From: Bacteroidota bacterium
Lineage (GTDB): Bacteria > Bacteroidota > Bacteroidia > Palsa-948
Assembly (NCBI GenBank): GCA_016213435.1
Contig: JACRAL010000184.1
Location: 1-59,822, forward strand
DNA length: 59,822 bases
Direction of reading: 5' to 3'
This document shows, one piece after another, positions 7,254 to 25,801 of the stretch (its first letter is position 1; the number at the start of each line of letters is the position of its first letter). The position numbers were made by a program, and so were the translations under genes. The notes beneath the pieces are model-generated. The model made no database searches. It was not told the DNA's origin and worked only from the letters and a program-made list of their open reading frames with translations.

Positions 7254-7730
7254 ATGAAAATAAATCAGAAAATATCTATTGAACAGCCCGTGGGAAGAAT
7301 TCTGTCCTATGCGGGAAAAGCCTTTTTAACATTGCTGAATGCACGGCTCGATAAACTTGATATCGAAAGGAATTTTTATGCATTGCTCCTGATAGAAACA
7401 GGAGAGGGGAAGATCACACAACAGTATCTGGCAGACCTATTGAAAACTGATAAAACAAGCGTTGTACGCATTGTAGACTATCTGTCAGACAACGGATATG
7501 TAAAAAGAATAAAAAGTCCGGTTGACAGAAGAAAATATTCTCTTACGCTTACACCCAAATCAAAAAGGGAAATCCCGATTATAAGAAATGCGATATATGA
7601 AATCACCGAAATGGCATTTAAAAGCCTTAAAAAATCACAGGTTAAAGAGTTTTACAATACATTAAAAATAATAAATAATAACCTGACGTGGCAAAACCAA
7701 ATGGAAGAATCATCGTTCGTTAATCGTTAA
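7254..7730 (+). CDS. MarR-family transcriptional regulator
   Basis: A 158-residue winged-helix protein. The recognition region TQQYLADLLKTDKTSVVRIVDYL (residues ~63-85) is followed by the wing RIKSPVDRRKYSLTLTPKSK, with the family's DxR signature. It lies about 115 bases before an RND efflux operon on the same strand. This matches the common arrangement in which MarR proteins repress a neighbouring multidrug pump and release DNA on binding phenolic or other small ligands. The link to the pump is inferred from position. A TATATTTG box at 7234-7241, directly before the start codon, fits the -7 element of a Bacteroidota promoter, but no good -33 TTG is present. Confidence 0.85.
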   Translation: MKINQKISIEQPVGRILSYAGKAFLTLLNARLDKLDIERNFYALLLIETGEGKITQQYLADLLKTDKTSVVRIVDYLSDNGYVKRIKSPVDRRKYSLTLTPKSKREIPIIRNAIYEITEMAFKSLKKSQVKEFYNTLKIINNNLTWQNQMEESSFVNR

Positions 7731-7846: not shown

Positions 7847-8887
7847 ATGAAATTCTTAACATTAATATTCATTTCGCTTTTTATAACAGGATTCATTTCC
7901 TGCAAAAATGGAAAGAAAGATAAAGGGACAAAAGAAAAACCCCCACCGGGCGTAGATGTTATGATTGCGGCTAACGAAAAATTTGAAAACACGGTTGAAG
8001 TAAATGGGACTGTGTTGTCAAATGAAATGGTTGAGTTGCATCCTGAAATCAGCGGACGACTCACCTATCTGAATATTCCGGATGGCGAAAAAGTTTCTGA
8101 AGGAACTATACTGGCAAAGATCAATGATGCCGAACTGCAGGCACAATTAGAACAACAAAAAGCACAATTCGACATAGCCGTAAAAACAGAAAAGAGACTG
8201 AAAGATTTATTGGCAATTAACGGGGTGAACCAGGCCGATTATGATGTGGCCATAAGCCAGGTAAATACGCTTCAGGCAGGTATTAAAGTTTTAAATGCCC
8301 AGATTGATAAAACCGTTATCAGGGCGCCGTTCACCGGAGAACTCGGATTGAGAATGGTTAGCCCCGGAGCATATGTCACGCCGCAAACATTGATCGGAAC
8401 ATTACAGCAAACCGATAATGTGAAAATTGATTTCACAGTACCCGAAGGATATGCATGCCTTATAAATAAAGGGAAGTCTATAACCATTCAAACAAATGTA
8501 TCCAACGAAAATAAAACAGCGACCATTGTAGCCATTGAACCGCAAATAAATATTTTAACAAGAAACTTAAAAGTGAGAGCGCGGCTGACTAACGGCAATA
8601 TTAATCCGGGAGCATTTGTAAAAGTTATACTTACGGAAAAAAAGGAGGGCATTTCAGTACCTACAAATGCCATTATTCCTGATGCCGCCTCCAATCAGGT
8701 TGTTGTTGTAAAAAACGGCAAGGCTGTTTTTAAAAATGTTGAAACAGGAGTCAGAACGGAAAATGCGGTTGAGCTTATAAGCGGAGTAAACCAGGGAGAC
8801 AGCATTGTGGTGAGCGGGGTATTATTTGTGCGTCCCAATGCCCCTGTGAAAATTAAAAAGGCGAAGAAGGTAAATGATAAAAAATAA
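7847..8887 (+). CDS. RND efflux periplasmic adaptor lipoprotein (MFP)
   Basis: The 346-residue adaptor links the inner-membrane RND pump to the outer-membrane channel. It has a lipoprotein signal peptide ending FISC, with Cys19 as the lipidation site. It then has the split biotinyl-lipoyl-like domain (ISGRLTYLNIPDGEKVSEG and TVIRAPFTGELG), a helical hairpin in between (residues ~95-145), a beta-barrel domain and a C-terminal membrane-proximal domain. This is the HlyD/AcrA-family layout and a normal length. It is the first gene of an adaptor-pump-channel operon downstream of a MarR regulator. The substrate cannot be read from the sequence. Confidence 0.92.
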   Translation: MKFLTLIFISLFITGFISCKNGKKDKGTKEKPPPGVDVMIAANEKFENTVEVNGTVLSNEMVELHPEISGRLTYLNIPDGEKVSEGTILAKINDAELQAQLEQQKAQFDIAVKTEKRLKDLLAINGVNQADYDVAISQVNTLQAGIKVLNAQIDKTVIRAPFTGELGLRMVSPGAYVTPQTLIGTLQQTDNVKIDFTVPEGYACLINKGKSITIQTNVSNENKTATIVAIEPQINILTRNLKVRARLTNGNINPGAFVKVILTEKKEGISVPTNAIIPDAASNQVVVVKNGKAVFKNVETGVRTENAVELISGVNQGDSIVVSGVLFVRPNAPVKIKKAKKVNDKK

Positions 8888-9024: not shown

Positions 9025-12000
9025 ATGAACATTTCAGAACTATCTATAAGAAAACCTGTACTGGCAACCGTAATGAACCTGTTCATCATACTATTTGGGT
9101 TTATTGGGTTTACATTTCTGGGTGTTCGCGAATACCCTGCCATTGATCCGCCGGTTGTTACCGTAACAACTTCTTATATCGGAGCAAATGCAGACATTAT
9201 CGAAAGCCAGATTACTGAACCTTTGGAAAAATCAATAAATGGAATTCCCGGTATCCGCACCATTTCTTCCACAAGTTCCGTTGGAAGAAGCAGCATTACC
9301 GTTGAGTTTAACATCAGCGCAGACCTGGAGGCGGCAGCCAATGATGTACGCGACAAAGTAAGCCAGGCGGCAAGAAATCTTCCGCAGGACATAGATGCTC
9401 CGCCTGTAATTTCGAAAGCCGATGCAAACAGCGATTTCATTATTTTGCTTGCGGTTCAGAGCCCAAGCAAGGGGCTCCTTGAACTGAGCGATTATGCCGA
9501 AAATGTATTGCTGAATAAATTTCAAACCATACCTGAAGTAAGCGCCGTAAACATTGTGGGGCAAAAACGCCCGGCCATGCGTTTATGGGTCAACCCGGAT
9601 AAAATGAATGCTTACAATATTGCTTTTAACGATATTACAAACATATTGAATAAAGAGAACATTGAAGTGCCTTCCGGAAAGATCTATGGCAATAAAACCG
9701 AATTAATCATCAGGGCATTGGGAAAGTTGAAAACGGAAAAAGATTTCAGGGATCTGATCATTCGCGAAGATGCAGCTGGAATTGTCAGGCTTGGCGATGT
9801 TGCTAAAGCTGAAATAGGCCCCGAACAATATGAACATAGCTGGAAACTCAACGGGGTAAGCGGTGTTGGATTAACCATTGTTCCACAACCCGGCGCTAAT
9901 TACATTAATATCTCTGATGAGTTTTCGAAACGACTCGAAGAAATTAAAAAATCGCAGAAGGGTGATTTAAATTTTATCACTTTAATAGATAATACAACCA
10001 ATGTGCGCCGTTCGCTGAAGGAAGTCGGAGAAACTTTACTAATCGCTATAAGCTTAGTGATATTGGTAATATTTTTCTTTTTCAGGAACTGGCTTATTGC
10101 AATCCGCCCTCTCATTGATATCCCGATATCTTTGATTTTTACTTTCTTCATCATGTATATGGCCGGATTTTCAGTGAACATTCTTACATTACTGGCAATC
10201 ATTCTTGCAACAGGGTTGGTGGTGGACGATGGAATAGTGGTTACCGAAAATATTTTCAGGAAAATAGAAAGAGGAATACCCGTGCGAAAGGCAGCGATTG
10301 AGGGAAGCAAGGAAATTTTCTTTGTAGTTATATCAACATCCATAACTCTGGCTATCGTTTTTCTGCCTGTATTGTTTTTGCAGGGATTTGTAGGCAGTTT
10401 ATTCAGAGAATTTGGAGTGGTTCTTGCCTGTGCCGTTTTGATTTCTGCATTTGTTTCTCTCACCATTACTCCGGTTCTGAATGTTTTTCTGAATAAAAAA
10501 AGCGCCGGACATGGAAAATTTTATGAAAAAACCGAACCCTTTTTCAGCGGTATGGAAAGCGGGTATAAAAATTTAATAGCGCGTTTTATAAAACATCGCC
10601 GGATTGCCTGGATGATTGTATTATTGTGTCTTATAATCGTTGTTGTAATCGGGAAAAACCTGCAAAGTGAAATAGCTCCTATTGAGGATAAAAGCGGTGT
10701 ACGCTTGCAGTTATCGGGCCCCGAGGGAGCCAGTTTTGGTTATATGACCGAAGCCGGTGAAAAAATAGGGAATTTTTTAATTGATTCTGTACCGGAAAGA
10801 GATTTTTCTTTTATTTCCATTCCGGGCTTTCATAGTTCCGGCATTAACAGCGGTATGGGAAGGATAGGGTTGGTCCCTGTTTCAGAAAGAAAAAGAAGCC
10901 AGAGCGATATTGTAAAGGAGCTCTCAAAAAAATTAATGCGGTTCAATAATGTCCGTATTTTCCCGATTGAAGAGCAAACCATATCCGTAGGACTTGGATC
11001 GAGAGGTTCTTTACCGGTGCAATTTGTTATACAGAACTTAGATTTCGATAAATTGAAAACTGTGATTCCAAAATTTCTGGATGAAGCAAAAAATGATAAG
11101 ACTTTTCAAAATGTAGATGTGAATCTGAAATTTAACAAACCGGAAATTGATATCACCATTGACAGAATAAAAGCCCGTGAGTTCGGACTCACCGCTACCG
11201 ATATTTCCGATGTTATCCAGAGCGCTTTCAGCGGGGGACGGCTGGCATATTTTATTATGAACGGCAAACAATACCAGGTGATCGGCCAGGTTGCGCTGGG
11301 AGACAGGCAGCAGCCTGCAGATATATCAAAATTATATGTCCGTAACAATAAAGGAGATAATATTTCATTAAAAGCGGTTACCAATCTTGTTACATATGCA
11401 AATCCTCCATCGCTCTATCATTATAACCGGTATAAAGCGGCAACCATTTCGGCTTCTCTTGCAGAGGGTAAAACCATTGGCGACGGGGTAAAAACCATGC
11501 AGGAAATTGCCGACAGGATATTGGATGAAAGTTTTCAGACCTCGTTGAGCGGGCCTTCCCGTGATTATGCCGAAAGTTCATCGAATATCGCATTTGCTTT
11601 CGGCCTTGCCTTGCTATTGATTTTTTTGGTGCTTGCTGCACAATTCGAAAGTTTCAAAGACCCGTTTATCATCATGCTTACGGTTCCCTTCGCTATTGCC
11701 GGCGCATTATTAAGCTTATGGATATTCGGGCAAACACTGAATATTTTTTCAGAGATCGGGTTGATCATGCTTATCGGTCTGGTTACAAAAAACGGAATAT
11801 TGATCGTGGAGTTCGCAAATAAAAAGAGAGACCAGGGATTATCAAAACATCAGGCAGTAATTGAAGCGGCAACGCAACGGTTAAGGCCGATTTTAATGAC
11901 CAGTCTGGCAACAACGCTGGGAGCTTTACCCATTGCATTAAGCTTAGGCACAACTGCAACCAGCCGTATTCCATTGGGAATTGTTGTTGTGGGAGGAATA

Positions 12001-12105
12001 TTATTTTCGTTGGTTCTGACATTGTTTGTGATTCCCGCAGTTTACACATTTGTTTCAAGCAAACACAGAAAAAATAAAGAAGAAACAGCTAAATTATTTG
12101 AGTAA
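9025..12105 (+). CDS. RND multidrug efflux pump, HAE1/AcrB family
   Basis: A 1026-residue inner-membrane proton/drug antiporter of normal length. The N-terminus ISELSIRKPVLATVMN is typical of the family. A first large periplasmic loop is followed by the proton-relay motif VVDDGIVVTENI in TM4 (near residue 400). A second periplasmic loop and the TM10 motif KNGILIVEFANKKRDQG follow, and 12 membrane helices are expected in total. It works with the adaptor encoded just upstream and the TolC-like channel whose start codon lies three bases after this stop. Regulation by the upstream MarR protein is plausible. Substrate specificity is unknown. Confidence 0.95.
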   Translation: MNISELSIRKPVLATVMNLFIILFGFIGFTFLGVREYPAIDPPVVTVTTSYIGANADIIESQITEPLEKSINGIPGIRTISSTSSVGRSSITVEFNISADLEAAANDVRDKVSQAARNLPQDIDAPPVISKADANSDFIILLAVQSPSKGLLELSDYAENVLLNKFQTIPEVSAVNIVGQKRPAMRLWVNPDKMNAYNIAFNDITNILNKENIEVPSGKIYGNKTELIIRALGKLKTEKDFRDLIIREDAAGIVRLGDVAKAEIGPEQYEHSWKLNGVSGVGLTIVPQPGANYINISDEFSKRLEEIKKSQKGDLNFITLIDNTTNVRRSLKEVGETLLIAISLVILVIFFFFRNWLIAIRPLIDIPISLIFTFFIMYMAGFSVNILTLLAIILATGLVVDDGIVVTENIFRKIERGIPVRKAAIEGSKEIFFVVISTSITLAIVFLPVLFLQGFVGSLFREFGVVLACAVLISAFVSLTITPVLNVFLNKKSAGHGKFYEKTEPFFSGMESGYKNLIARFIKHRRIAWMIVLLCLIIVVVIGKNLQSEIAPIEDKSGVRLQLSGPEGASFGYMTEAGEKIGNFLIDSVPERDFSFISIPGFHSSGINSGMGRIGLVPVSERKRSQSDIVKELSKKLMRFNNVRIFPIEEQTISVGLGSRGSLPVQFVIQNLDFDKLKTVIPKFLDEAKNDKTFQNVDVNLKFNKPEIDITIDRIKAREFGLTATDISDVIQSAFSGGRLAYFIMNGKQYQVIGQVALGDRQQPADISKLYVRNNKGDNISLKAVTNLVTYANPPSLYHYNRYKAATISASLAEGKTIGDGVKTMQEIADRILDESFQTSLSGPSRDYAESSSNIAFAFGLALLLIFLVLAAQFESFKDPFIIMLTVPFAIAGALLSLWIFGQTLNIFSEIGLIMLIGLVTKNGILIVEFANKKRDQGLSKHQAVIEAATQRLRPILMTSLATTLGALPIALSLGTTATSRIPLGIVVVGGILFSLVLTLFVIPAVYTFVSSKHRKNKEETAKLFE

Positions 12106-12108
12106 AAA

Positions 12109-13596
12109 ATGAATCGAATATTTAAGACTACTCCAAAAACTTGCTTTTTGAAAATCAGCCCTTGCCCCAACCCTAAATGGTGGCTGATTTTCGGCGATTT
12201 CCCTTTAGGGATTAAAGGCAAAAAATCGCTGAAAATTATTTCTCAGACTTTTTGGAGTGGGCTCATATTTAAAATTTTTATACTAAATAAATTACGCTTT
12301 AATCTTTTTGCTTTAACCTTTTTACTATTGCTTATCTCGCTTATTACTCATGCACAGCAAATGATTACACTAAAAAGCGCCATTGATTCTGCATTGAAGA
12401 ATAATTTCGATATTCAGATTGCAAAGAACAATGCTGAAGTCGGCAAAATGAACAACAACTTTGGTATGGCGGGCGGACTGCCTTCAGTGAATATCACAGC
12501 AGGAGATAATGAATCGGTTTCAAATATTTACCAAAAACTAAGCAGCGGTACAGAAATTAATAAAGACAATGCCTTGGGAAACAACCTCGCCGCAGGTGTT
12601 AATGCAAGTATGTTCTTGTTCAACGGATTCAAAGTCTTAGCCACAAAAGAAAAACTGAAATCCATCCAAACACAGAGCGAACTTTTGCTGAACCAGCAAA
12701 TACAAAACACCATCGCTGCCATTATGGTAAAATATTATGACATCATCCGGCAGATGGGTTATCTGAAAATTATACAATCGTCGCTGGAGGTATCGAAACA
12801 AAAACTTGAAATCATCACTCAGAGAAAAAATGTAGGCATGGCTAATGACGTGGAGCATCTGCAGGCACAGATAGATGTGAACGCCGGAGAACAAAATATC
12901 AAGACACAGCAACTGATAATCGGGCAGGCTAAAACGGATTTATTGCAACTCATGAGTGTGAAAAAATATTTCGCCGCCGAGATAAAAGACACCATATTAG
13001 TTGATAAAAATATTCAGATGGATTCCATCATAAATTATCTTAACCGCAATCCGCAATACCTTTCAGCAGAACAGCAAATAAAAATCAATGAGCAGATCGT
13101 TAAGGAAGTTTCTGCGCAGCGGTATCCTTCTGTTAAAATTAATGCGGGTTATAATTTCAACTTAGCTCAAAGCGATGCAGGGCAACTTTTATATAATCAG
13201 AATTACGGACCCTCTGTCGGGATTACGTTGAATATACCGATTTTTAACGGTACTATATACAAGACACAACGCGATGCTGCGGTCTTTAATGTCAATAATT
13301 CAAAACTTCAAAAAGAGAGCCTGCTGAATTCTCTAACCGCAGGTACGGTGAAAACATATCAATCTTACAGTAACACGCTTCAGCAAATCGTGTCACAGCA
13401 AACAAGCAATGAGATGGCCGGGCAATTAGTAAATCTGGTCATAAAAAAATTCCAGATGAACCAGGCCACACTTCTTGATGTGAAAACAGCACAGGCGAGC
13501 TTTGAAGATACCGGTTATCAATTAGTAAACCTGCAGTATGCTGCAAAAATCGCAGAGATTGAACTGAAACGAATGACCTATAGGTTAGTGCCTTAG
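12109..13596 (+). CDS. TolC-family outer-membrane efflux channel, signal peptide interrupted by an in-frame insertion
   Basis: The C-terminal ~410 residues form a TolC/OprM-type outer membrane factor with two OEP repeats of long helices (for example LKSAIDSALKNNFDIQIAKNNAEVGK and the ALLDVKTAQ-like segment near the end). It completes the RND operon. The N-terminus is odd. Starting from the only available upstream ATG, the first six codons are followed by ~49 codons that come from a short inverted-repeat element at 12130-12258. Only then comes a good signal peptide (KLRFNLFALTFLLLLISLITHA, cut before QQ). Removing the 147 bases between the flanking ATATTTAA repeats restores a normal signal peptide in frame. 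The channel as encoded may be exported poorly, or translation may start from a non-standard codon after the element. Confidence 0.85.
   Translation: MNRIFKTTPKTCFLKISPCPNPKWWLIFGDFPLGIKGKKSLKIISQTFWSGLIFKIFILNKLRFNLFALTFLLLLISLITHAQQMITLKSAIDSALKNNFDIQIAKNNAEVGKMNNNFGMAGGLPSVNITAGDNESVSNIYQKLSSGTEINKDNALGNNLAAGVNASMFLFNGFKVLATKEKLKSIQTQSELLLNQQIQNTIAAIMVKYYDIIRQMGYLKIIQSSLEVSKQKLEIITQRKNVGMANDVEHLQAQIDVNAGEQNIKTQQLIIGQAKTDLLQLMSVKKYFAAEIKDTILVDKNIQMDSIINYLNRNPQYLSAEQQIKINEQIVKEVSAQRYPSVKINAGYNFNLAQSDAGQLLYNQNYGPSVGITLNIPIFNGTIYKTQRDAAVFNVNNSKLQKESLLNSLTAGTVKTYQSYSNTLQQIVSQQTSNEMAGQLVNLVIKKFQMNQATLLDVKTAQASFEDTGYQLVNLQYAAKIAEIELKRMTYRLVP
12126..12264. mobile_element. MITE-like inverted-repeat element inside the TolC gene
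   Basis: A non-coding-type palindromic element has 10-bp terminal inverted repeats ACTCCAAAAA (12130-12139) and TTTTTGGAGT (12249-12258). Inner arms are AAAATCAGCC (12151-12160) with GGCTGATTTT (12182-12191), and GCGATTT (12194-12200) with AAATCGC (12233-12239). It is flanked by the 8-bp direct repeat ATATTTAA at 12118-12125 and 12265-12272, which looks like a target-site duplication. Insert plus one duplication is 147 bases, exactly 49 codons, and it contains no stop in the gene's frame. Confidence 0.7.
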
Positions 13597-25514: not shown

Positions 25515-25558
25515 AGATATATATTTTAGTTATGTTTACAAATTTTATTGAACAATAG

Positions 25559-25732
25559 TTCGGTAATTTTTGGGGTCATTTTGGCGTGAGCCACGTTGTG
25601 GCAACGCTACTCATCGTGGGCTAAAGCCCGCTATTCGTGAGCGTTTTGACTTACCCCGACCTTAAGGTCGGGGTAAGTGATAAAACGCAGAAATACCAAG
25701 GGCTTTAGCCCTTCATTAAAAAAATTACCGAA
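25559..25732. repeat. Nested compound inverted-repeat element
   Basis: Three nested inverted pairs flank a perfect palindrome. Outer: TTCGGTAATTTTT (25559-25571) with AAAAATTACCGAA (25720-25732). Middle: GGGCTAAAGCCC (25618-25629) with GGGCTTTAGCCC (25700-25711). Inner: GCGTTTT (25641-25647) with AAAACGC (25682-25688). The core is a perfect 30-base palindrome at 25649-25678, centred on CTTAAG. A side hairpin GCCAC-GTT-GTGGC lies in the left arm. The whole 174-bp unit looks like a small non-autonomous repeat or mobile element. Confidence 0.75.
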
Positions 25733-25801
25733 GTATTGATTGAAGATAGTTTGCATTATCTTCTGCATTGCAAAAGTAGAATAAAAAATGAAATTCACTT
25801 G

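Follow-up and report, generated by a model that had tools for sequence, protein, structure and literature searches.

The window analyzed here, a 59,822-nucleotide stretch of DNA from a Bacteroidota bacterium, contains a real in-frame MITE insertion in the signal peptide of a tolC-family efflux channel; the kind of element is known, its location unusual. That this sequence is a MITE insertion is hardly in doubt. The full account that we propose, in which the inserted element is read through from the native start codon and the channel is exported and cleaved so that its mature form is unaltered, is in our view probably correct.

A MITE at the start of an efflux channel gene

The channel gene (495 aa; positions 12109–13596; OEP match, E 3.7e-37) belongs to an efflux locus headed by a MarR-type regulator (7254–7730), which is followed by an RND periplasmic adaptor (RND_mfp; 7847–8887), an RND efflux permease (9025–12105) whose end lies 3 bases from the start of tolC, and tolC itself, all four on the forward strand, and then by ligA. 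The window also encodes a carboxypeptidase whose Por secretion tail points to a host among the Bacteroidota.

Direct repeats (ATATTTAA) lie at both ends of 12118–12272, with imperfect inverted repeats inside, and a sequence-only reading of this DNA had interpreted them as an 8-bp duplication around a 139-bp element with 10-bp terminal inverted repeats (TIRs). Both kinds of repeat are present, but their extents differ from those proposed. Because 11 related copies in other genomes have exact 6-bp duplications, the target-site duplication is ATATTT, at 12118–12123 and 12265–12270, and the element spans 141 bp, at 12124–12264 (forward strand). The 8-bp duplication was therefore dropped; it appears because the left end of the element reads AAGACTACTCC, not GAGTCCACTC, and the right flank continues with AA. 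The TIRs are imperfect and 16 bp long, with AAGACTACTCCAAAAA on the left (12124–12139, forward strand; family consensus GAGTCCACTCTAAAAA), its outer bases mutated, and GAGCCCACTCCAAAAA on the right (12249–12264, as read on the reverse strand). Thirteen of the 16 pairs match, and a 20-nt inverted repeat is 80% complementary.

Two inner hairpins, both annotated on the forward strand, lie between the TIRs. Hairpin 1 (12150–12192; arms GAAAATCAGCC and GGCTGATTTTC) carries in its loop core unit 1, CCCCAACCCTAAATGG (12165–12180, forward strand), one mismatch from CCCCNNCCCTAAAGGG; hairpin 2 (12187–12236; arms ATTTTCGGCGATTT and AAATCGCTGAAAAT) carries core unit 2, CCCTTTAGGG (12201–12210, forward strand), which is the inverse of unit 1 with a degenerate outer part. 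The hairpins share six bases and thus compete with one another. As DNA, the element folds with a z-score of −4.85 relative to shuffles. A scan of the window for 6-bp duplications with TIRs of at least 12/16 at a spacing of 80–250 bp returned 4 places, vs a mean of 0.63 and a maximum of 2 in surrogates; because surrogates also give some, the anatomy alone is suggestive, and the related copies decide. No match to the window was obtained from Rfam, nor to the element from BLAST against plasmids and phages.

Other palindromic sequences occur in the window. At 25547–25744 there is a second MITE-like element, intergenic and 186 bp long, with an ATTGAA duplication, a 15/16 TIR, and a very strong hairpin (−93.6 kcal/mol as RNA) that includes CCCCGACCTTAAGGTCGGGG. 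At 10–110, an 89-bp palindromic element with TTAAAG flanks and a 13/16 TIR contains TCGAATAACGAA-type repeats.

Related copies in other genomes

Among 395 genomes of the class, BLAST recovered two strong copies, both in G276, which belongs to a different family. Among the matches listed, the TIR pattern occurs 28 + 26 times in this genome (about 54 termini), vs once for a control pattern. The 18 G276 copies that we measured are mostly 151–152 bp and have near-perfect TIRs; the longer ones, of 259–391 bp, contain extra core DNA that apparently represents nested insertions. When the window element is aligned with these copies, TIRs, hairpins, and CCCTAAAGGG units all line up, although about a quarter of the bases differ and the window element is a net 10 bases shorter than the 151-bp consensus. 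We built a covariance model from the window copy and 14 G276 copies, so matches to those copies arise by construction; the window element matches all 151 model positions (E 2.4e-20) as one of the model's own 15 sequences. Beyond G276, the model finds a pair of copies in G173 and a single one in G298; the latter genome also holds an element (L088) that shares the TIR but not the interior.

These relatives behave as a mobile family. They span 131–391 bp without a long ORF inside, and exact 6-bp duplications flank 11 of the 21 outside copies in eight different sequences, AGTTAT, ATATTT, AATTTT (four times), AAAAAT, ATACTT, ATTGTT, AAAATT, and AAGTTT, each fitting the pattern A....T. These 21 copies lie between genes or at gene ends, and long ORFs cross none of them. 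The earlier proposal that the element is a mobile MITE thus holds, and the other copies with different flanking duplications that it called for exist in other genomes but not in the element's own, in which BLAST, the TIR pattern, and the covariance model list no second full copy with the same TIR. More widely, scanning the genome collection with a two-part pattern gave 11 scattered matches, most in unrelated phyla, and viral contigs gave one exact TIR match, within an ORF and without a partner.

Short, without transposase coding, bounded by TIRs and a duplication of constant 6-bp length, and present in multiple copies (in other genomes), the element has the properties of a MITE; its family matched no named one in the open-licence papers with which we compared it. 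No transposase ORF was found inside the copies or recognized beside the solo termini examined, and for DDE_Tnp_1, the transposase family considered as a partner, a search of G276 gave no match and five loci in the family-mates of G276 lack the MITE TIR. We infer that a transposase supplied in trans would mobilize this non-autonomous MITE, with its GAGTCCACTCYAAAAA TIR and 6-bp A....T duplications.

The family resembles MITE239, MITE464, and BrickBuilt of Porphyromonas gingivalis (PMC4596501), which are likewise short, non-coding elements of Bacteroidota with TIRs and a target duplication, presumed mobilization in trans, and several to dozens of copies per genome; the IS5-type TIRs of P. gingivalis begin with GAG, as here. 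It differs from the P. gingivalis MITEs in its TIR, its 6-bp A....T duplications, and its two inner hairpins with CCCTAAAGGG units. According to PMC4596501, prokaryotic MITEs are almost exclusively intergenic; the window copy, in contrast, lies in a coding frame.

Insertion into an ordinary signal peptide

The nearest TolC homologs, at 40–49% identity (G277, G379, G299, G241, and G294; L173–L177), have ordinary short signal peptides directly after the start (e.g., MKKVFIFLCFIASLAQAQQ and MKKLFLFLFSVIAIQGFSQQ), and the 49 extra residues of the window's TolC are therefore an insertion. Four of these five homologs have the RND C-terminus immediately upstream; the L175 stretch gave no RND match. 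The empty site proposed earlier as a check is therefore present at the level of distant homologs but not in a close relative: a TolC homolog was undetectable in five of six genus-mates and the sixth has one at 29%, so that, with no close homolog among them, no same-species or same-genus empty site was found. A native, conserved N-terminal extension of a TolC subfamily, repeat-like by resemblance, might also be in frame and positively charged, but the extension is absent from the nearest homologs and the DNA related to it consists of intergenic mobile copies in other genomes, which leaves this reading extremely improbable.

The element and one duplication (141 + 6 = 147 bases) make 49 codons that are stop-free in the tolC frame and sit after native codon 5, ahead of the signal core. 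Removing them in silico turns the 495-aa protein into a 446-aa ORF starting MNRIFKIFILNKLRFNLFALTFLLLLISLITHAQQ. These results bear out the sequence-only reading in its claims of an in-frame insertion between start codon and hydrophobic core, of 147 stop-free bases adding 49 residues, and of a signal peptide restored by excision. One of the six frames of the window element is open, namely that of tolC; among the G276 copies, 1 of 84 frames is open and length plus 6 is divisible by 3 in 1 of 14. A long ORF runs through the window copy, vs none of the 21 outside copies. In view of the net loss of 10 bp, the frame may at some point have been broken and then restored.

Predicted effect on the channel

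In the tolC signal peptide, the MITE entered downstream of codon 5 and ahead of the hydrophobic core, and since its 49 codons are stop-free in the tolC frame, they would be read through from the native ATG. The n-region of the preprotein would then comprise about 65 residues instead of 16. The insert contributes eight K/R and one D, for a net charge of +7 (an example of the encoded peptide is IISQTFWSGLIFK). Downstream of it, the signal core LFALTFLLLLI and the THA-QQ cleavage region are unchanged, and the hydropathy peak is 3.09 with and without the insert. Because core and cleavage region are intact, Sec export is most likely kept. Sec export accommodates n-regions that are long and positively charged, as in autotransporters with their extended signal peptides; the insert would then be lost along with the signal peptide. 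The Sec pathway would still export the channel, signal peptidase would remove the insert, and the mature channel would be unaltered. The sequence-only reading had left it between a disabled channel and a tolerated insert; we favor tolerance, and judge tolerated export of the channel to be the likely outcome.

Read-through of the whole insert depends on where translation starts. A start inside or after the element, so that not all 49 residues are carried, would be offered by the in-frame TTG at 12148, which gives a shorter extension, or by a non-canonical start behind the element, and ATGs within the repeats of the G017, G015, and G059 homologs described below could serve in the same way. The insert has no ATG or GTG, however; the next starts behind it are a TTG at 12328, inside the core, and an ATG at 12361, behind the cleavage region; and the ATG at 12109 lies 3 bases past the RND stop, an arrangement like that of a coupled operon. 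We therefore think an internal start quite improbable here.

Tolerance also has to be weighed against damage. The hairpins begin within about 20 bases of the ATG, and with an RNA z-score of −4.17 they possibly exact a cost in translation. If they blocked initiation, or if the 65-residue n-region blocked targeting, the insertion would cripple or shut down the channel, and the open frame would be the luck of a recent event. The target duplication is still perfect, which is consistent with recency, and no close relative permits a test of selection on the frame. On the other hand, the other 441 codons are undamaged and give a full OEP match, the frame is still open although 3 of the 16 TIR pairs are mismatched and the element has diverged from the G276 copies, and in-frame palindromes at the same site in other TolC proteins suggest tolerance. 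A crippled channel is thus unlikely, and export with removal of the insert remains our preferred reading.

Palindromes at the same site in other TolC homologs

Unrelated palindromes lie in frame at this site in two or three other TolC homologs. The clearest is that of G017 (L008, 1387–1500), in which a perfect palindrome with 34-bp arms (MKTYKTIVPSEYLRMTNWVNNTLRVGVILRYSEGTIVKFVTCLF; z −12.9) lies in frame between start and core. Another repeat occupies the same place in the homologs of G015 and G059, which belong to one genus (z −3.7 and −2.8), and the G011 homolog has a short palindrome with 9-bp arms (CTCTCCCC; z −2.4). The true start could be an ATG within the repeat in some of these genes. 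The homologs of G129 (L190) and G093 (L185) look insert-like as protein but have no significant fold (z −1.3 and +0.9) and were not counted. Perfect arms of at least 12 occur in 3 of 52 regions upstream of the homologs vs 1 of 207 within genes, which supports an enrichment weakly: in L176, one of the three, the palindrome stops some 90 bases short of the mature start and is apparently intergenic, and with an arm of 11 the window's own copy is below the cut.

Core units in the element's own genome

The inner units of the MITE have a wider distribution than the MITE itself. With up to one mismatch, the unit CCCCNNCCCTWWAGGG has at least 126 matches in the element's own genome, vs 1 for a control. 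The CCCCNNCCCTAAAGGG units there (L040–L069 and L200–L251; about 126 among the matches listed) often form inverted pairs. Exact units fall within an ORF of at least 80 aa in 28 of the 64 cases examined; many of these are evident genes, and some of the 28, particularly short ones, may not be genes. Core-like palindromes are apparently in frame in rarA, pyrB, ispE, tsaE, ispG, and others. Among the unit-bearing ORFs, Pfam confirms RarA (MgsA), an aspartate/ornithine carbamoyltransferase, a GHMP kinase (IspE-like), and TsaE, whose match falls in two stretches around the insert, as well as LptC-like, LysM, asparaginase-like, and GHL10 proteins. In three of these, the LptC-like, LysM, and GHL10 proteins, units fall within the apparent signal peptide or ahead of it. 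For instance, in L155 (G000:C126:317-440), a GHL10 glycosyl hydrolase-like secreted protein whose locus the MITE model matches weakly (E 3.8e-5), a MITE-like core that holds the only upstream in-frame ATG supplies both the start codon and the n-region.

In number, more than 100, and in their frequent inverted pairing, the CCCCNNCCCTAAAGGG units resemble REP and REPIN sequences (cf. PMC3733652). Unlike REP/REPIN with RAYT (Y1), the MITE has TIRs and a target duplication, and none of the five Y1_Tnp matches in its own genome is flanked by exact core units, on which ground a RAYT origin of the units was discarded.

To our knowledge, in-frame palindromes are known chiefly from Rickettsia; the present case is an in-frame insertion with evidence of mobility from another phylum. 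The Rickettsia palindromic elements (RPEs) are similar palindromic repeats of about 150 bp that lie in frame in unrelated protein genes and are read through (PMC10969869). They insert in frame unusually often, and a similar mechanism elsewhere has been considered conceivable (PMC10969869). Several genes with apparently in-frame core-type inserts may give the window's own genome an RPE-like trait, of which the MITE as such would be one case. The differences from RPEs are the phylum, the sequence, the clear TIRs and target duplication, and the location of the outside MITE copies, which are not in coding frames; moreover, the insert in tolC is probably absent from the mature protein, because it lies within the signal peptide.

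A broader idea, which we advance tentatively and regard as somewhat doubtful, is that the n-regions of Bacteroidota signal peptides are a recurrent safe harbor for small palindromic elements, which, taken with the in-frame palindromes of housekeeping genes, would amount to a Bacteroidota counterpart of the RPEs, with the CCCTAAAGGG core modular and common to MITEs of different TIRs. If so, insertions that keep the frame would be removed with the signal peptide, and unrelated repeats would for that reason have struck the same TolC site independently. The discarding of the signal peptide would be a simple reason for the survival of inserts, and where annotated Bacteroidota secreted proteins have long n-regions, transposon DNA may be the source.

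The covariance model also matches elements in G359, G071, and G373 that have quite different TIRs and a similar core, the G071 and G373 matches being weak (E about 0.003). Several MITEs may have captured the core as a module, or the core may be a repeat in its own right, inserting into these MITEs. The elements of the G359 family (L150, L154, L157, L160, L162, L164, and L166) combine the TIR TATCCGTTTGTTTACCTA with a similar inner core, and several of them are flanked by inverted (ATGCT/AGCAT), not direct, repeats.
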